A stretch of 42,186 bases of DNA from contig JALSHZ010000127.1 in the NCBI GenBank assembly GCA_026981985.1, positions 1 to 42,186 of the forward strand, written 5' to 3'. The position numbers were made by a program, and so were the translations under genes. Shown here piece after piece: positions 1 through 35,333 of this stretch (its first letter is position 1; the number at the start of each line of letters is the position of its first letter). The notes under the pieces were generated by a model. That model made no database searches. It was not told the DNA's origin and saw only the letters and a program-made list of their open reading frames with translations. The stretch comes from Gammaproteobacteria bacterium. GTDB taxonomy: Bacteria; Pseudomonadota; Gammaproteobacteria; UWMA-0217.

Positions 1-63
1 TACGAGGGTCTTCTAACGGCGAAAAGTGTTCAATCAAGCAGGCGGTCACGGGAAACTCCTAAT

Positions 64-819
64 GTGGTTTCTCTGTATGATCTCATATCTTGCTGGTTTT
101 ATGGGAGTTTATATGCGCTCGCCCTGACTGGGTTTACCCACCGCGTCTATTTTTCGCCCGGTGATGGTTCACGGGTATTGCATGTGTATATCGATGGTGA
201 TGGTCGCCCCTGGTTGCGTCGTGCAGTGATCAACCTGCGCCCTGAAGTACCCCAGCCACTGATGTTGCAAGCGATGGCGCTTGATGAGCGTCCTGCGCTC
301 TATCTCACCCGCCCTTGTTACCATCAGCAGTTCGATGCTGATAAATGTGAGCCCTGGTATTGGACTCATGGTCGCTATGCGCCAGAGATCGTTGAAAGCA
401 TGGCGGCGGTCGTGCAACGCTGGGTGGCGAATCACGGGCATGCGAAAGTACGCCTCTTCGGTCACAGCGGCGGTGGCAGCATTGCGCTATTGATGGCGCG
501 GGATCTACCCGATATCGAAGCGATCGTCACCGTTGCGGCGAACCTCGACACCGCGGCATGGACGCGGTACCACGGCTACACCGCGCTGCTGGGTTCGCTC
601 AACCCGATAGCCGCAGGGCTCCCTTCTGGTATTGCCCAATTTCACTATCTGGGCAGTGAGGATCGAAATGTCCCACCGGGAATTTTTCCTGCCATTGGCG
701 CAAACCCCAACGTGGCTGTGAGAATTGTTCCCGGACAGGGGCATCGGTGTTGCTGGTTGGATGACTGGCCGACCATACTCCAAGAAACAGATACTTTTAT
801 GATGCAGAAAAATCCATGA
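64..819 (+). CDS. alpha/beta-fold hydrolase
   Basis: Predicted serine hydrolase of the alpha/beta-hydrolase fold; substrate unknown. The nucleophile elbow is GHSGGG at residues 133-138 (Ser135), and a C-terminal His227 in PGQGHR is the likely catalytic histidine. Asp or Glu of the SEDRN stretch near residue 200 could complete the triad. A hydrophobic N-terminal stretch (about residues 8-23) may be a membrane anchor or uncleaved signal. The start is GTG at 64; it lies near the window edge, so a start further upstream cannot be fully excluded. The stop codon overlaps the kinase start by four bases (ATGA), implying translational coupling. Family is fairly sure; specific function is not. Confidence 0.8.
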   Translation: MVSLYDLISCWFYGSLYALALTGFTHRVYFSPGDGSRVLHVYIDGDGRPWLRRAVINLRPEVPQPLMLQAMALDERPALYLTRPCYHQQFDADKCEPWYWTHGRYAPEIVESMAAVVQRWVANHGHAKVRLFGHSGGGSIALLMARDLPDIEAIVTVAANLDTAAWTRYHGYTALLGSLNPIAAGLPSGIAQFHYLGSEDRNVPPGIFPAIGANPNVAVRIVPGQGHRCCWLDDWPTILQETDTFMMQKNP

Positions 820-2021
820 CAGCAGCAGCAACATTTTCTATCCCCGGTTACGACATCGGGGAAAAAATCGGCGAGGGTGGATTTGCGAAAGTGTTTCTGG
901 CGGAGCAGACATCGCTGCAGCGTAACGTGGCGCTCAAAATCGTTGCGCCGGAACTGGTCAGTGATCAGGAATTTTGCGACCGCTTCATCAAGGAAGGGCG
1001 CATTATCGCCAAGCTCAGTGAGCACCCCAATATCATCACCATTCACGATATTGGCTGCCACGACAGCTGTTACTACATGTCGATGGAGTATGTTGCTGGC
1101 GGCACCTTGTCGGAAAAGATCCGGGCAGGTGAAGTGGATACGCCGGCTGCCTATCTTCGTGAGATTGCGAAGGCACTGGCCGAAGCGCACCGGATGTCGT
1201 TTATCCATCGTGACATCAAACCCGCCAATATCCTGTTCAAGGCGGACGGTACGCCAGTATTGACCGACTTCGGCATCGCCAAGTCATTGACCGGTGCCAC
1301 CCAGTTGACGCAGGCGGGTTTCGCAGTCGGTACGCCCGACTACATGAGCCCCGAACAAGCCATGTCCAAGCCGCTGGATGGACGCTCGGACCTGTACAGC
1401 CTCGGCGTCGTGTTCTACGAGATGCTCACCGGTGAAAAGCCGTTTGTGGGCGAAGATGCCTTTTCGGTGGCCGTCAAACACATCAACGAACCACCACCGC
1501 CGCTGCCAACTGCGCAGGCACACTTCCAGCCGATTCTCGATCGCCTGCTGGCCAAGAGCCCCGATGACCGTTATCAGGATGCTGAAGCGCTGATCGCTGA
1601 TCTCGACCGCGTTGCGCCACCGGGCAGCGAAGGCAAGGATGCCGTCTCGGAGACACAATCCGGTCGCGAGCGAAGCCGCAAACCGCTATGGATCGGGACT
1701 GGCGTCGTGGCTGCGCTGGCGGTGTCGATCTCGACCGTCATCGCGCTGGCGCCAGACCAGATGACCCGGCCCGATAAGACCGTGCCGGTGCAGCCCGCCG
1801 TTTCTGACGAGATCTCCGATGAAGATGCCCAGGCGGCATTGCTCGACAAATTCTCGCCCAGGGTGCGGCGGCTGCTGGAGACCGCGATGCTGCACCAGGA
1901 GTTCGGGCGCTTGACCGATCCGCCGGGCAGCAATGCATGTGAAGCCTATCGGCTGGTGCTGGAGAGTGATCCGGATAATGAACTTGCGAACAAGGCGGTA
2001 AAAGAAATTGGCTGCCCCTGA
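816..2021 (+). CDS. PknB-type Ser/Thr protein kinase with C-terminal membrane segment
   Basis: Eukaryotic-like (Hanks-type) kinase expected to phosphorylate Ser/Thr of partner proteins at the inner membrane. The glycine loop GEGGFAKV is at 19-26, the ATP-anchoring Lys41 sits in VALK, Glu60 is the probable helix-C glutamate, HRDIKPAN spans 131-138 with catalytic Asp133, DFG is at 151-153, and a TPDYMSPEQ P+1 loop follows. All residues needed for activity are visible. A single transmembrane helix (about 291-312) follows the kinase domain, so the last ~90 residues should be periplasmic; that tail has no PASTA repeat and is not recognised. The gene overlaps the hydrolase upstream and is followed after 65 bp by the caspase-like lipoprotein, its most obvious candidate partner (inference). 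Confidence 0.93.
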   Translation: MTAAATFSIPGYDIGEKIGEGGFAKVFLAEQTSLQRNVALKIVAPELVSDQEFCDRFIKEGRIIAKLSEHPNIITIHDIGCHDSCYYMSMEYVAGGTLSEKIRAGEVDTPAAYLREIAKALAEAHRMSFIHRDIKPANILFKADGTPVLTDFGIAKSLTGATQLTQAGFAVGTPDYMSPEQAMSKPLDGRSDLYSLGVVFYEMLTGEKPFVGEDAFSVAVKHINEPPPPLPTAQAHFQPILDRLLAKSPDDRYQDAEALIADLDRVAPPGSEGKDAVSETQSGRERSRKPLWIGTGVVAALAVSISTVIALAPDQMTRPDKTVPVQPAVSDEISDEDAQAALLDKFSPRVRRLLETAMLHQEFGRLTDPPGSNACEAYRLVLESDPDNELANKAVKEIGCP

Positions 2022-2086
2022 TTGTCGATTTGCTGCGTATTGAGCGATGGGACGTCACGCTATTTAAGACTGAGGACTGAAGATCC

Positions 2087-4858
2087 ATGAATAACTATGC
2101 AAAACCGGCTAGTCTGCGCGGGCTCCTGATCGCAGGGGTCGTCACTGCGGTAACCATTGCCGCAGGCTGTGCCACCACAGAGCGGGTTACTAGGCCCGAC
2201 AGTGGAGAGACGCAGAATCCTGACCGCCTGCTGGTGGTGGATTGCCTGCTGCCAGCACGTGTCCAGCAGCTGGGGCAGAAGCTTACTTATCTGGCGCCAC
2301 GTCGCCCGATCAAGACCACCCAGTCCGATTGCGAGATCAGAGGGGGCGAATACACCGCCTATGATCGCGCCAACTATGCGACTGCGCTGAAGATCTGGCT
2401 GCCACAGGCCAAGCAGGGAGACCCCGCCGCGCAGACCTATGTGGGCGAGATCTACGAAAAGGGCCTTGGCATCATGGCTGACTATCAAGTGGCTGCGGCC
2501 TGGTATCGTAAGGCAGCGGCCCAGGGCTATTCCCGAGCCATGATCAACCTGGGCTATCTCCATGAGAGTGGTCTCGGGGTCGAGCAAGATCTGGTGCAGG
2601 CAATGAACTGGTATCGCAAGGCTTCAGGTCTGACAGAGGCTGATCTCGAATATGTATCGTCAGTAGAACGTGCGCGCCGCAAGGCCGCAGTCGAGGAGAC
2701 GGCCAGTCTGCGTACTGAAGTTGGCAGCCTGCAGCGGGAACTCGAAGCGGCACGCCTTCAGCTGGCCGAGCGCAAGACGACGCTGGAGGCCGAGCGTCAG
2801 CGTGCGGCAGCACTGCGTGCCCGGTTGGCTGCCGAGCAGAAAAAGCGTGCAGCGGTTGCAAGTGTCGGCGATGGTGCCGAAGCGGCCAGATTGAAAAAAG
2901 AACTGGCCGGGGCGCAGAGCGAAAAAGAAGCGCTCAGTCAGGCGCTGGCACAGCAGAAAGCGGAATTGCAGCGGTTACAGACGAAGCTCTCGTCACGGGA
3001 ACTTGAGATGGCATCAGCCCAACGGGCACTCGATGCCGCGACCGCGAAACTGCAGGCAGCGGGTTCCAATAGTCAGACTTCGACAGCGGAGCTGGCGGCA
3101 ATCCGTGCCGAGCGTGAAGCTCAGGCGAAAAAAGTGGCGACGCTTGAAACGGAATTGAGCACGTTGAAATCCGACTATGCCAGTGAAAAAGAGCGGCTGG
3201 CTGCCGGTTTGGCCCAATCTCGCCAGGAGCAGGCACGCCTGCAAGAAAAACTCGCCGGCGCAGCGTTGGCCAGTAGCCAACGTGAGAAAGAACAGGCGGC
3301 CCAGCTGGAAAAAATGCAGCAGCAGAATGCCGCATTGCAGCAGGCACTGCTCGACAACCAGCAGCGTGAAGCGGCATTGAATCGCCAGCTGGCTGCATCG
3401 GGAAGCCAGGCGAATGACAGCGCCGAGCTGCGCAAGCAATTGGCGGCAGCGCAAAAACGCTCGCAGGATCTGCAACAGCAGCTACAGACGGCCACTGCCG
3501 AGCAAAGCCGCTTGCAGAAAAACCTCATGTCGGCACAAATCGCCAGTGGTCAATCGGCAGGTGAACTGGCCGAATTGCAGAAAAAGCTGGCGGCGTCGGA
3601 AGCTGCTATTGCCCGTTATGAACAGGAAGTGGCGGCTTTGAGCAAGAAAGCCAAACAGTCGACGGTAGCCAAAAAAGAGGTCGCAGCCAACAAGGTGGTC
3701 GCCACTGTCACCGATGGTCCGGCGATCGAAATCATCGACCCGCCAATGGCCGTCACCCGCTCGATTCCGGCGGTGTTTGCCCCGCGCGGGCTGCCCAAGC
3801 TGGAAATCATCGGCAGGGTATCGGCTCCTGATGAGCTGCTGACCTTCAAGGTCAATGGCCGCAAGCTGTCGCTGAATGACAACGGACTATTTCAAGTCGA
3901 AGAGCCTGTCGGCACAAGTGAGAAGAAGGTGCAAATGCTGGCCATCGATCGCAGCGGTAAGAAAACACAGATGCAGTTCATGATCATCCCCAAGGCTGCC
4001 GACGGCGCAGCGACAACACCCGCAAAAAAAGGTGCTGGCTCGGCGCCGACGAGGATCGAATTTGGCAGTTACCATGCACTGGTTATTGGTAACAAGGAGT
4101 ATGACAACCTCACCAACCTGAATACTCCGGTCAATGACGCGCGTGCCATCGAAAAAATCCTGCGCACAAAATACGGCTACAAAACGCAATTATTGCTCAA
4201 TGCCAACCGCTATCAGATTCTTTCTGCACTCAACAAGCTGCGAGAGACCCTGACGGAAGATGACAATCTGCTGATCTACTATGCCGGGCATGGCGAACTC
4301 GATGGGGTCAATCAGCGTGGCTTCTGGCTGCCGGTCGATGCCGAGCCGGACAATAGCGCCAACTGGATCTCCAATGTCGCCATCACCGATATGCTCAATA
4401 TTATGAATGCCAAACACGTCATGGTGGTTGCAGATTCCTGTTACTCCGGGTCGCTGACGCGCGCATCGATCGCCCGTCTGCAGGGCGGCATGTCGTCGAA
4501 GAAAAAGAACAAATGGTACAAGTTGATGGCCAAGGCCCGCACCCGTACCGTGCTCACCTCGGGTGGCGTCAAGCCCGTGCTCGACTCCGGCGGCGGGGAG
4601 CACTCGATTTTTGCGCGCGCTTTTATCGATGTCATCGACGGAAATAGTCAGATCATGGAAGGCTACCAGCTCTATCGTGAGGTGCTCGCGAGGGTCAAGA
4701 AAAACGCCAAACGCCTCAGGGTCGAGCAAAACCCTCAATATGCACCGCTGAAATATGCCGGTCACGAAGCGGGGGAATTTTTCTTTCTGCCCAAGGCACG
4801 GCAGGCCATGAACGAACCATCGCAGAGGTTTCGGCTGGCACTGGCGGCGCGGTATTGA
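2087..4858 (+). CDS. Sel1-repeat / coiled-coil / caspase-like (peptidase C14) lipoprotein
   Basis: A 923-residue envelope protein. The N-terminus has a lipoprotein signal peptide with lipobox AAGC and lipidated Cys28. Two or three Sel1-like repeats follow (about 97-180, with AAAWYRKAAAQGYSRAM-type helices), then a very long Ala/Gln/Glu/Lys-rich coiled coil (about 190-525), an Ig/bacterial-domain-like beta segment (about 545-640), and a caspase-like domain from about 660 to 880. The caspase dyad is intact: His735 in YYAGHG and Cys785 in DSCYSG. Acidic residues next to the Cys suggest cleavage after a basic or acidic side chain, but this cannot be decided by eye. The gene follows the kinase closely on the same strand. 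Domain calls are solid; a role in proteolytic signalling or cell death is inference. Confidence 0.9.
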   Translation: MNNYAKPASLRGLLIAGVVTAVTIAAGCATTERVTRPDSGETQNPDRLLVVDCLLPARVQQLGQKLTYLAPRRPIKTTQSDCEIRGGEYTAYDRANYATALKIWLPQAKQGDPAAQTYVGEIYEKGLGIMADYQVAAAWYRKAAAQGYSRAMINLGYLHESGLGVEQDLVQAMNWYRKASGLTEADLEYVSSVERARRKAAVEETASLRTEVGSLQRELEAARLQLAERKTTLEAERQRAAALRARLAAEQKKRAAVASVGDGAEAARLKKELAGAQSEKEALSQALAQQKAELQRLQTKLSSRELEMASAQRALDAATAKLQAAGSNSQTSTAELAAIRAEREAQAKKVATLETELSTLKSDYASEKERLAAGLAQSRQEQARLQEKLAGAALASSQREKEQAAQLEKMQQQNAALQQALLDNQQREAALNRQLAASGSQANDSAELRKQLAAAQKRSQDLQQQLQTATAEQSRLQKNLMSAQIASGQSAGELAELQKKLAASEAAIARYEQEVAALSKKAKQSTVAKKEVAANKVVATVTDGPAIEIIDPPMAVTRSIPAVFAPRGLPKLEIIGRVSAPDELLTFKVNGRKLSLNDNGLFQVEEPVGTSEKKVQMLAIDRSGKKTQMQFMIIPKAADGAATTPAKKGAGSAPTRIEFGSYHALVIGNKEYDNLTNLNTPVNDARAIEKILRTKYGYKTQLLLNANRYQILSALNKLRETLTEDDNLLIYYAGHGELDGVNQRGFWLPVDAEPDNSANWISNVAITDMLNIMNAKHVMVVADSCYSGSLTRASIARLQGGMSSKKKNKWYKLMAKARTRTVLTSGGVKPVLDSGGGEHSIFARAFIDVIDGNSQIMEGYQLYREVLARVKKNAKRLRVEQNPQYAPLKYAGHEAGEFFFLPKARQAMNEPSQRFRLALAARY

Positions 4859-10486: not shown

Positions 10487-10515
10487 CTGTCATTCTTTTG
10501 TCATCTTTCTGTCTC
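10487..10515 (+). promoter_or_regulatory. Pho box (three in-phase PhoB half-sites) before the porin
   Basis: The heptamers CTGTCAT, TTGTCAT and CTGTCTC start at 10487, 10498 and 10509, each separated by a 4-bp T-rich spacer. Heptamers of this type at 11-bp spacing are the known PhoB operator arrangement. The box lies 52 bp before the porin ATG and 131 bp from the divergent phoX-like gene. Phosphate-starvation induction is therefore the strongest regulatory call in the window. Confidence 0.8.
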
Positions 10516-10566
10516 ATTATTCGCACTCCTGTAGTTTTTATCCAACACGAAAGTAGGAGTCTGCTG

Positions 10567-11513
10567 ATGAAAATGAAACTGATTGCCTTATCTGTCGCCG
10601 CTGCGGCGATGATGCCAGCCGTTGTGGGGGCTGATACCACGTTATATGGTAAGGCCCATCTCGCTGTTGAGTCCGAAGGTGCGGGTGAGAGTGTGATCGA
10701 GGTGAAGAGCCATGCGTCTCGCGTCGGCCTGAAAGGGAAAGAGGACCTTGGTAATGGACTAAAGGCTGTTTATAAATTCGAATGGCAGCTTGATATGGCC
10801 GATAAATCCAAAGGTTCCGACGATCACATAAAATCACGCAACCAATACGCCGGGCTGAGTGGCGGATTTGGTACGGTGTTGTTTGGGCGCCATGATACGC
10901 CGCTGAAGATGTCGCAGGAAAGTTTGATCTGTTCGGTGATATCTATGGCGATATCGCCAGACATCTTGCCGGCGAGGCTCGGGCAAACAACGTGGTGGCC
11001 TGGGTTTCACCAAAGTTTGGCGATGCAAAAATCGTTGCCGCCTACGTGCCTGCCGAAAATGCGGATAATGACAAGGTCATATCCATTGCGGCAATGTACG
11101 GTAGCAAGCCCTTGTATCTGGCATTGGCTTACAATGCCTATGATGAAGCTGTCGGCGTAGGTGATTCGCTGTTGCGTGCAACCGTTACCTGGAAGGCTGG
11201 TAATTTCGGTGTTGGCGCCATGTTCCAGCAAGCAGAGCCGACCACGGGTGACAGCACCGCTGCCTATGCAGTGAATGGTTATTTCAAATCGGGTAGCAAT
11301 AAATTCAAGCTGCAATTCCAGAGTGGTGAAGGGCAGGATGTTGGTGTCAAGACAGCCAAGATCAAAGAAGATGCGGCAACCATCAGTGTTGGTTGGGATC
11401 GCAAGATGAGTAAACGCACGAAAATATATCTTGCTGCACACAACACCACTTTTGATGACGACGCCAAAGACGATTTTACCAATATTGGCTTTGGCCTGGT
11501 TCACAAGTTTTGA
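10567..11513 (+). pseudogene. Outer-membrane porin broken by a single-base frameshift
   Basis: A Gram-negative porin (Porin_4-like, trimeric beta-barrel). The start is ATG at 10567 with a GGAGT motif upstream and a signal peptide ending near VVGA-DTTLYGK. The first frame reads through SRVGLKGKEDLGNGLKAVYKF and SRNQYAGLSGGFGTVLFGRHD, then loses sense after SQE (codon at 10918). From 10920 the -1 frame continues the porin as KFDLFGDIYGDIARHLAGEA and runs to the typical terminal phenylalanine (GLVHKF). One A is missing from the run at 10919-10921. The repaired protein would be about 315 residues. A Pho box upstream suggests a phosphate- or anion-selective channel (inference). Real decay, a recent mutation, or a sequencing error are all possible. 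Confidence 0.85.
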
Positions 11514-11538
11514 TGGTTTTTCTGTAGGGGCAGTTTGG

Positions 11539-11568
11539 TGTGGAGCGTGGCGCGATCAGCGCTCCACA
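11539..11568. terminator. Hairpin between the convergent porin and queG
   Basis: TGTGGAGCG (11539-11547) and CGCTCCACA (11560-11568) form a perfect 9-bp stem with a 12-base loop between the two gene ends. No T-run follows directly; a T-rich stretch starts about 18 bases later on the + strand. It probably serves as a shared terminator. Confidence 0.5.
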
Positions 11569-32366: not shown

Positions 32367-35333
32367 ATGAATCAATCATTGTTTCGATCCCTGTTCCAGT
32401 TTTTCGTGTTAATCGTATTGCTGGTTGCTAACTCAGCAGTGTTTGCTGCAATCCAGGTTTCTGTTACGCCTCAAACTCCAACCGTAAACGAAGGAGACGA
32501 TCCGGTCAGTCTGACTCTGTCGGCAACTGGAGCCACTGGCGTTGTCAATTATACATTGACGGCAAAACCTCCTACGGCTGACACGAGTCTCCTTAGTGGC
32601 ACGGTATTTAGCGGTACAGCGCCAACTGTAGATTTCAATACGCCACTTTCCGTAACGACAGATACTACATACACCTATACAGTCACTGGTGAGGATACAA
32701 GCGGGGCGACTGATTCGGTTGATATCACCATCACAGTCAAGGATCTCACCTTAACGGCTAATGCGGGTACGGATCAGTTGTCAGTGGTTTTCGGTAGCAC
32801 CGTTACTTTAGATGGCAGTGGTTCGACTGGGCCGATCACGGGCTGGGTGTGGACTCAGGAGTCCAAGGATGTGGCATCTTCTCCGGATATCAATCCGGCA
32901 GATGTGGAGAAGCCGACGTTCACGGCGCCCACGGTTACAGCGGATACAACCTATGTTTTCAAGTTGAGCGTCAACGGCGCAGCAGGGACGACACCCGATA
33001 CGGATACGGTAACGATCAAGGTTCTGAAGCCAGTCGCACTGGGTGCCGAAGCGGGGCCGAACCAGTTGTCGGTTGTCGGTGGCAGCACCGTCGCGTTGGA
33101 TGGTAGCAGTTCGACTGGGCCGATCACGGGCTGGGTGTGGACTCAGGAGTCCAAGGATGTGGCATCTTCTCCGGATATCAATCCGGCAGATGTGGAGAAG
33201 CCGACGTTTACGGCGCCCACGGTCACAGCGGATACAACCTATGTTTTCAAGTTGAGCGTCAGCGGCGCAGCAGGGACGACACCGGATACGGACACGGTAA
33301 CGATCAAGGTTCTGAAGCCAGTCACATTGGTTGCCAAAGCGGGGCCGGATCAGTTGTCGGTGGTCGGTGGCAGCACTGTCACGTTGGATGGAAGCGGCTC
33401 CACAGGACCGATAACGACGTATGCTTGGACACTGGAGTCCAAAACGCCTGCGACAGCGCCAGCGGTTGCGCTAACGGATGCGGACAAAAACAAGGCAACA
33501 TTTACGGCCCCGACGGTCACAGCGGATACAACCTATGTATTCAAGTTGAGCGTCAGTGGTGCAGCAGGGACGACACCCGATACGGATACGGTAACAATCA
33601 CGGTGACAAATGCCCCGCCCGTCGCCAATGCTGGCCCGGATCAGACGGATGTTGAGGAGGGAGAGACGGTCACACTCGATGGCAGTGCTTCCACTGACCC
33701 TGAGGGAGAACCGCTTACCTATGAATGGGTGTCGGTCACTGATCCAGCAATCGTCCTGGTGTTGACGGACCCTGAAAAGCCCACGTTCACTGCTCCTCGT
33801 GTTGGCGAGGCAGGGAAGACGCTGGAATTTTCTTTGCAAGTGACTGATGACAAGGGTGTAAAGAGTGCGATTGACACCGTCACAATCACGGTAAAGAACA
33901 CCAAGAATGACCCGCCGGAAGCAGCGATCAAGCCATTCAACGATGCAGTGGAGCCTGGAGTCGAGTTCTCGCTGGATGGCTCGATCAGCACCGATCCTGA
34001 TGGCAATGACACGATCAAGACTTTTCAATGGACGCAGGCTGAAAATGATCCGCTGCCGATCACGATTATCAAGGGCGATGTCGCCATTGGCCAGTTCCGT
34101 GCACCCGCCATCAACGAGACGGTTCAGTTGACGTTGATCCTGACCGTGACCGACGAGGAAGGCAAAACTTCCGAGGCCCAGCAGTCTGTTCTCATTACGC
34201 TCGATGAAACACTGAAAACACCGCAGGCCAAGGCTGGGAAGGATGATATTGCCGAAACTGGCAGGGTTGTGACATTGGATGGTTCGAAGTCTCGTGACAC
34301 CAATGAAGATGGCTCGATCACCAGCTATGAGTGGAAGCAGGTGAGCGGTGTGCTGGTGACGTTGACGGATGCTGACAAGGCACAGGCAAGCTTTACCGCA
34401 CCCGCTGGCATACAAGAGTTGGAGTTTGAACTCAAGGTGACCGACAACAACAATCTGTTTGCAACCGATACGGTGTCGGTGTTTGTTGGCCCCAAAACCA
34501 GCCTGCAGGTGGATGCCGGACAGGATCAGATCGATGTCGAGGAGGGCAGTACCGTGACGCTTTCGGGTTCCGTACTCAATGGTACGGGAACGGAACAGGA
34601 GTTGCGTTGGCGGCAGGTTGATGCGACAGGTACAGGTGTGATTCTCTCTGAAATCGATGCGGCGAATGTGCATTTTGTCACCCCGCCCGTCAATGGTGGC
34701 AAGGATGCGCTGCCGTTGAGCTTCGAGTTTGTGTCATGGGATAGCAGCAAGGGTGTCGGCATTGACAGCGTCGATATCACCGTCAAAGACAACGGTGTTC
34801 CCAACGTGCCTGATCAGTTTGTCCCAGTCCTCGCCGCAATCGATGGCGTGGCGGGAGTCGGTTTCGATATTCAGAGCGGCAATTTGATCAAACTGAATCC
34901 GCGCAAAGCGCCATTGAATGAGCGCGCCACCCAGACGAACCGGCCCAAGAGTATTCCCTATGGGTTGTTCGATTTTGATTTGAAGGTAGAGAATCCTGGT
35001 GATTCAGTGACCCTCCGTGTCTGGTTTCCTGAAAACATGAGCAGTGGCTACGACTGGTTCAAATACGATAGCGAAACGGAGACCTGGACGCCTTACGAAA
35101 ATGTCGTATTCCAGGGGAACGAGGTATTGATTACGATGACCGACGGTGGCCCAGGTGATGATGATGGCAAGGCAGACGGCGTCATTCGCGATCCATCGGG
35201 CCCAGGATCAAAAGTTGCGACGACAAAGACCAAAATTGAAGGTTCTTCTGGTGGTGGTGCCATGGTCTGGGGCTTGACGCTGCTCGTCGCGGGGGCTGGC
35301 CTACGGCGCAAGCGAACAGCGAAAGCAGCATGA
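32367..35333 (+). CDS. Tandem PKD-like domain surface protein with GlyGly-CTERM-like tail
   Basis: A 988-residue secreted adhesin- or scaffold-like protein. A Sec signal ends near AVFAAIQV. An N-terminal beta domain (about 30-128) is followed by seven PKD/REJ-like domains of about 96 residues with the recurring pattern AGxDQ...GSTVTLDGSxST...TFTAP...DTVTI. A further C-terminal domain (about 815-950) with IPYGLFDFDLKVENPGDSVT and a DDDG calcium-like motif resembles the choice-of-anchor U domain. The end has SSGGGAMVWG, a hydrophobic helix, then RRKR, the tripartite layout of GlyGly-CTERM proteins processed by a rhombosortase. Pentapeptide cell-wall or heme motifs are absent. The stop overlaps an upstream ATG of the barrel gene, implying coupling. 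Function unknown. Confidence 0.85.
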   Translation: MNQSLFRSLFQFFVLIVLLVANSAVFAAIQVSVTPQTPTVNEGDDPVSLTLSATGATGVVNYTLTAKPPTADTSLLSGTVFSGTAPTVDFNTPLSVTTDTTYTYTVTGEDTSGATDSVDITITVKDLTLTANAGTDQLSVVFGSTVTLDGSGSTGPITGWVWTQESKDVASSPDINPADVEKPTFTAPTVTADTTYVFKLSVNGAAGTTPDTDTVTIKVLKPVALGAEAGPNQLSVVGGSTVALDGSSSTGPITGWVWTQESKDVASSPDINPADVEKPTFTAPTVTADTTYVFKLSVSGAAGTTPDTDTVTIKVLKPVTLVAKAGPDQLSVVGGSTVTLDGSGSTGPITTYAWTLESKTPATAPAVALTDADKNKATFTAPTVTADTTYVFKLSVSGAAGTTPDTDTVTITVTNAPPVANAGPDQTDVEEGETVTLDGSASTDPEGEPLTYEWVSVTDPAIVLVLTDPEKPTFTAPRVGEAGKTLEFSLQVTDDKGVKSAIDTVTITVKNTKNDPPEAAIKPFNDAVEPGVEFSLDGSISTDPDGNDTIKTFQWTQAENDPLPITIIKGDVAIGQFRAPAINETVQLTLILTVTDEEGKTSEAQQSVLITLDETLKTPQAKAGKDDIAETGRVVTLDGSKSRDTNEDGSITSYEWKQVSGVLVTLTDADKAQASFTAPAGIQELEFELKVTDNNNLFATDTVSVFVGPKTSLQVDAGQDQIDVEEGSTVTLSGSVLNGTGTEQELRWRQVDATGTGVILSEIDAANVHFVTPPVNGGKDALPLSFEFVSWDSSKGVGIDSVDITVKDNGVPNVPDQFVPVLAAIDGVAGVGFDIQSGNLIKLNPRKAPLNERATQTNRPKSIPYGLFDFDLKVENPGDSVTLRVWFPENMSSGYDWFKYDSETETWTPYENVVFQGNEVLITMTDGGPGDDDGKADGVIRDPSGPGSKVATTKTKIEGSSGGGAMVWGLTLLVAGAGLRRKRTAKAA
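32757..33623 (+). repeat. Near-identical 288-bp coding tandem repeats inside the PKD gene
   Basis: Units start at 32757, 33045 and 33333, exactly 288 bp (96 codons) apart. Units 1 and 2 are almost identical at the DNA level through the WVWTQESKDVASSPDINPAD segment; unit 3 keeps the ends but has a different centre. Later domains are divergent, so the first three result from recent duplication or gene conversion. Confidence 0.9.

Follow-up and report, generated by a model that had tools for sequence, protein, structure and literature searches.

The locus and its features

Near one end of a gammaproteobacterial contig, three consecutive genes encode an alpha/beta hydrolase, a Hanks-type Ser/Thr kinase and a caspase-like lipoprotein, a combination that raises the question of whether the three products act together and, if so, in which compartment and on what. 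The window analysed here, 42,186 nucleotides long, is one entire contig (C127 of 149), so that the initial annotation could not take in the half of the neighbourhood lying upstream. Mechanical ORF calling reproduced the coordinates given there for the three genes (64-819, 816-2021 and 2087-4858), as well as the 4-base overlap between hydrolase and kinase and the 65-bp gap between kinase and caspase. The features discussed below are as follows.

1-126, minus strand: left end of an insertion sequence (IS) with about 17 copies, recognized by a sharp 126/127 boundary, its presence at many contig ends, partner right ends and 10-bp duplications
within 1-126, minus strand: would-be start of the IS's own gene, VTACLIEHFSPLEDPR...
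64-126, plus strand: first 21 codons of the hydrolase ORF as initially annotated, consisting of IS DNA; at other IS sites this prefix runs into unrelated sequence
127-136, no strand: 10-bp target-site duplication ACTGGGTTTA, whose second copy on contig C36 borders the right end of the IS
127-819, plus strand: remaining 3' part of the IS-interrupted gene for an alpha/beta hydrolase lipoprotein, based on an AlphaFold model, orthologue alignment and rejoined flanks
466-468 (Ser), 661-663 (Asp) and 742-744 (His), plus strand: hydrolase catalytic triad, from alignment
816-2021, plus strand: Hanks-type Ser/Thr kinase with a 90-residue periplasmic tail; membrane segment at about 1692-1748
2087-4858, plus strand: exported caspase-like lipoprotein; lipobox Cys at 2168-2170
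4064-4801, plus strand: caspase catalytic domain; His735 at 4289-4291, Cys785 at 4439-4441

The window contains no Rfam families, and a scan for promoters and terminators performed no better than chance. Elsewhere in the window, a porin gene (10498-11540) carries a single frameshift near position 10,910 that places its halves in different frames, reflecting either a pseudogene or an assembly error. A secreted protein encoded at 32367-35330 has about seven PKD repeats, of which some are nearly identical; its C-terminal tail looks like a GlyGly-CTERM sorting signal.

An insertion sequence splits the hydrolase gene

The sequence of window positions 1-126 is found 16 more times in the genome, nearly always at a contig end, and the copies diverge at the identical base. 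A related right end, TGATTTATATGCGCTCGCCCTG, is present at 15 further contig ends. The left and right junctions could be matched into 12 pairs having exactly 10 bp in common, and none with 11, so that the shared bases represent target-site duplications of a mobile element present in about 17 copies; terminal inverted repeats likewise mark it as mobile. The exact overlap of 126 bases fits an assembly k-mer of 127. Together, the copies explain about 30 contig ends of this genome, and the body of the element is absent from the assembly, which is why the ISAs1 transposase family (NF033564) has no match in the genome. Neither the IS end nor its C-terminal peptide found a match among plasmids, and the short terminal peptides matched nothing in Pfam or NCBIfam, so that an ISAs1-like affiliation of the element is tentative.

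At this site the mate of the window is contig C36. The native hydrolase start, MPFLWHGGRAGSLAVACLLIVVLLLLSACAST..., lies on C36 and encodes a lipoprotein signal peptide (LLSAC), and rejoining the flanks of C36 and the window restores a single frame, MPFLWHGGRAGSLAVACLLIVVLLLLSACASTSHINDRFAASHGWEIRALEG followed directly by TGFTHRVYF... Consistently, orthologues match the ORF of the window only from about codon 22, and most of them have a lipoprotein signal and lipobox. The GTG start initially assigned at position 64 thus falls within the IS, and what had been annotated as a whole gene is a truncated one. The gene is single-copy, with no second full copy in the genome; nor was an intact hydrolase gene with a lipoprotein signal found there, the signal peptide (C36) being separated from the core (window). 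The insertion thus divides the hydrolase gene of this genome in two and deprives its core of the export signal; the kinase and the caspase are intact. The split is read from the assembly, and the population may be mixed.

The remaining hydrolase core, encoded by 127-816, gives only weak Pfam matches to alpha/beta hydrolases, and AlphaFold predicts for it a complete fold (pLDDT 95). The nearest structures found with Foldseek are esterases, lipases and monoacylglycerol lipases, at 11-17% identity, and the Ser-Asp-His triad is invariant in all 37 sequences aligned. The insertion would therefore leave a foldable catalytic core without an export signal, which, if translated, would probably stay in the cytoplasm. 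With start and lipoprotein signal both lost to the IS, the role of effector that the initial annotation had proposed for the hydrolase is a poor fit in this genome. The case also illustrates that a gene truncated at a contig edge can pass for the first gene of an operon.

An exported caspase homologue and a transmembrane kinase

The caspase-like protein combines a lipobox, a conserved Cys-bearing region, two Sel1 repeats (Pfam, 2e-18), a coiled coil, an Ig-like domain and the caspase domain (Peptidase_C14, 2e-25). Its lipidation, proposed initially, is supported by lipobox Cys28, which the first six aligned orthologues share. More broadly, an export signal is present in all 74 readable caspase N-termini, and about 60 of these also show a lipobox, as judged by pattern and by eye; those without one, mainly from a Lysobacter/Xanthomonad-like group, have an ordinary signal peptide. 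The protein scored 70.6 bits against the NCBIfam model of the EACC1-associated caspase type, below its curated cut-off of 140.

In the structural model (pLDDT 82) the Ig-like domain precedes the caspase domain, and the closest structures retrieved by Foldseek are MALT1 paracaspase and metacaspases (E-value of about 1e-11). The catalytic His735 and Cys785, together with Asp783 and Asp684, are invariant (66/66). In MALT1, Asp462 lies two residues before the catalytic Cys464. Asp783, two residues ahead of Cys785, matches the position of Asp462, and Asp684 matches Asp365 by alignment. In MALT1, the S1 pocket is lined by acidic Asp365, Asp462 and Glu500 (PMC4357240). Because Asp783 precedes the catalytic Cys by two residues, as does Asp462 of MALT1, a preference of the caspase for a basic P1 residue (Arg/Lys) is likely, judging from sequence.

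The kinase matches Pfam Pkinase (1.2e-49) and its motifs are complete (K41, H131-R-D133, D151-F-G153). The domain assignments of the initial annotation thus stand, as does its view that the catalytic residues of all three proteins are intact. The signalling from kinase tail to caspase suggested in the initial annotation is conjectural; the C-terminal membrane segment is kept in 37 of 43 kinases neighbouring caspase genes, many with a similar periplasmic tail, and a tail motif around PPGSNA is common to many of them (20/47 by strict match). Direct phosphorylation of the caspase by the kinase is unlikely, since the kinase domain is cytoplasmic and the caspase lies across the inner membrane.

The caspase recurs with a small set of partners

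The initial annotation had pointed to neighbourhood conservation as the check on its proposal, and the gene set does recur, in dozens of loci and in a genome survey. Scanning 84,980 species genomes with the caspase alignment yielded 311 relatives, of which the best 80 were kept and dereplicated to 60 loci, mostly gammaproteobacterial. Cultured, non-pathogenic carriers include Methylomicrobium sp. wino1, Marinobacterium rhizophilum DSM 18822 and Parahaliea mediterranea. Within these 60 loci an autotransporter neighbours the caspase in 41, the hydrolase in 28, the kinase in 28 and PP2C in 13; no other family recurs as broadly as these four. Hydrolase and kinase occur together in 17 of the 60 loci and all three main partners accompany the caspase in 13, while 10 loci, some on short contigs, have none of the three. 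The association suggested for the trio thus holds as recurring linkage, but the trio was drawn too narrowly: the commonest partner is the autotransporter, followed by PP2C and FHA proteins.

Gene order and strand are shuffled: most neighbouring hydrolases are divergent, and most neighbouring kinases lie downstream in the same orientation. The compact hydrolase-kinase-caspase order was found at this locus only and in none of the other caspase loci compared. Locus L116 has a nearly full version of the reconstructed set, including FHA, PP2C and cytochrome. Caspase and kinase are spaced by 10-18 bp on the same strand in L149, L116, L141, L144 and L146, gaps compatible with co-transcription, and the hydrolase gene overlaps by 4 bp in L119 and L163.

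For an unbiased view, high-scoring hydrolase genes were compared with full caspases across 369 genomes of the same class. The hydrolase is present in 20 of 26 caspase genomes and in 5 of the remaining 343 (Fisher p=2e-23, a value that ignores kinship and uses thresholds set post hoc), so that five genomes of the survey carry the hydrolase and no full caspase. Of the 20 pairs, 14 lie on one contig, with gaps from 123 bp to 4.1 kb, and in eight of these the genes are no more than 300 bp apart. Among the four relatives searched from the window's own family, only G003 has the caspase.

C36 extends the neighbourhood on the far side of the insertion: it encodes an uncharacterised protein of 348 aa, an autotransporter (PF03797, 1e-40), PP2C and multihaem cytochromes, as well as a divergent SulP-FHA protein and a protein with two FHA domains. 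In a single ORF on C36 (L089:16641-18374), an FHA domain is joined to a multihaem cytochrome c, near the SulP transporter with FHA (L089 3621-5702) and a PP2C-FHA pair, a cluster that suggests phospho-controlled electron or anion transport. A multihaem protein resembling cytochrome c554 (CYT1) recurs in L133, L135, L136, L155, L116 and L089 (7619-8968), where it lies near kinase, PP2C, autotransporter and caspase genes in unrelated families. A set resembling type I secretion, composed of a cNMP-binding ABC transporter of C39 type, HlyD, PpiC, an FHA protein and an outer-membrane efflux protein, adjoins the caspase in L031 (2191-12464), L138 and L150.

Some autotransporter passengers are small and helical, others Ig-like or very large. 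The barrel is kept while passengers are swapped (L095:6114-8792, L133:7243-9942); Thiodiazotropha passengers have ASH/HYDIN Ig-like domains, and those of Lysobacter-type genomes are very long. The passenger sequences are too diverse to reveal a common cleavage site. A conserved Arg in the linker was considered as a cleavage site and set aside, because an Arg-bearing linker ahead of the barrel appears to be a general feature of autotransporters.

Possible function and alternative explanations

The conserved gene module itself is well supported. The gene set and its linkage, the export signals, the intact catalytic residues and the splitting of the hydrolase gene by the IS were observed directly, and from them we infer mechanism, specificity, substrate and direction of signalling. 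Three of the four core products reside in or past the periplasm and the kinase crosses the inner membrane; given these compartments, the simplest account is that the phospho-arm reads the envelope and the exported protease acts on a surface partner. We therefore favour, with a probability of roughly 0.4, the reading that the locus is one instance, damaged in this genome, of a recurring and mainly gammaproteobacterial envelope module in which a kinase system controls caspase-autotransporter processing.

The module comprises an exported caspase homologue, usually a lipoprotein of outer-membrane type with Sel1, coiled-coil, Ig-like and paracaspase-like regions; a membrane-spanning Ser/Thr kinase that carries a periplasmic tail and is frequently accompanied by PP2C and FHA proteins; an alpha/beta hydrolase lipoprotein; and an outer-membrane autotransporter with a variable passenger. 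In the mechanism that we consider most likely, the kinase/phosphatase/FHA arm would sense the state of the envelope through the kinase tail, the caspase would cut after basic residues and thereby process or shed the passenger, and the hydrolase would be an accessory ester-cutting lipoprotein in the compartment of the caspase. More tentatively, the module may constitute an undescribed envelope pathway, with an exported paracaspase that cuts a surface autotransporter under the control of a kinase-phosphatase-FHA arm, the hydrolase being a fourth core part; in this specific form it is a possibility we would not yet bet on.

The components also occur separately, and linkage falls short of functional proof. 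Eukaryote-like signalling genes might simply gather in the same regions without joint function, as the shuffled order and orientation and the nearby cNMP-binding, FHA, sigma-54 activator and multihaem cytochrome genes would suggest. We regard this as doubtful: broad recurrence is limited to four families, hydrolase and caspase go together across whole genomes and not just locally, and the tight spacing and 4-bp overlaps speak against it. The caspase could also mature or turn over envelope proteins other than the autotransporter, such as the hydrolase or a secreted substrate. Such candidates share its compartment, the hydrolase is at times its sole partner, and type I secretion genes adjoin in G003, L138 and L150; with the autotransporter the most frequent partner (41/60), this seems unlikely.

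Two further explanations borrow from described systems. Caspase homologues and Hanks kinases serve in bacterial defence, so the kinase could sense damage and the caspase and hydrolase kill the cell, as a cell-death or anti-phage module. PADLOC kinase models (PD-T4-6) match the kinase strongly and a caspase model matches weakly, but the kinase matches are scattered over 35 generic kinase models and the hydrolase matches none. In addition, nuclease, CBASS and restriction genes are not recurrent in caspase neighbourhoods, and the caspase and hydrolase are exported lipoproteins rather than cytosolic effectors, with an autotransporter as the conserved partner; such a role is improbable. Assignment to a known anti-phage system was rejected: the PADLOC matches were generic ones for the kinase and a single weak one for the caspase, with no system-specific gene set. 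Alternatively, kinase, PP2C and FHA proteins could be the PpkA/PppA/Fha pathway of a type VI secretion system (T6SS), tuned by the caspase. T6SS genes (TssJ, TssK, TssL, TssM, FHA) do adjoin the module in 9 of the 60 loci, including L140, L142, L149 and L169; most caspase loci, however, have no such linkage, and the sheath gene VipB is absent from the genome studied here (G000) and from G003, G039 and G078, all caspase carriers. These four genomes without T6SS largely refute an accessory role as a general account, and we consider it very improbable.

Should control of caspase-autotransporter processing by the kinase system prove right, phospho-signalling would be coupled to extracytoplasmic caspase proteolysis. 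Bacterial caspase homologues tend to be treated as cytosolic proteases of cell death. An exported class that is large, conserved and tied to fixed partners in signalling and at the cell surface offers a concrete role outside cell death that can be tested, together with a defined list of candidate substrates.

Comparison with known systems

Open-access literature yielded no description of such a caspase with an autotransporter, a kinase, T6SS or this gene neighbourhood. With prokaryotic caspase homologues (orthocaspases and bacterial metacaspases, C14) the caspase of the window shares the caspase fold and the His-Cys dyad. In a survey of prokaryotic caspases, Sel1 is among the commonest accessory domains, being present in 40 sequences, and some of the surveyed genes lie in operons, including Xanthomonas trmE, Myxococcus sigma-factor and others (PMC3501461). 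The operon section of that survey contains no operon matching the caspase-autotransporter-hydrolase-kinase set, and the present class differs in regular export, in its Sel1-coiled coil-Ig architecture and in its partners (PMC3501461).

MALT1, with its caspase and Ig3 domains, is the closest solved fold and has an Ig-like domain next to the caspase domain and an acidic residue two positions before the Cys. Here, by contrast, the Ig-like domain lies ahead of the caspase domain, and the protein is bacterial, extracytoplasmic and devoid of a death domain, its basic specificity being a prediction. The T6SS PpkA/PppA/Fha pathway likewise combines a Ser/Thr kinase bearing a membrane segment with PP2C and FHA proteins, here sometimes beside T6SS genes, but the genome studied has no T6SS, and caspase, hydrolase and autotransporter are foreign to that pathway. 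The surface lipoprotein proteases SphB1 and NalP and the periplasmic LapG offer the parallel of an exported protease possibly releasing a surface passenger or adhesin; they are subtilisin-type or transglutaminase-like proteases rather than caspases, and have no Ser/Thr kinase arm.
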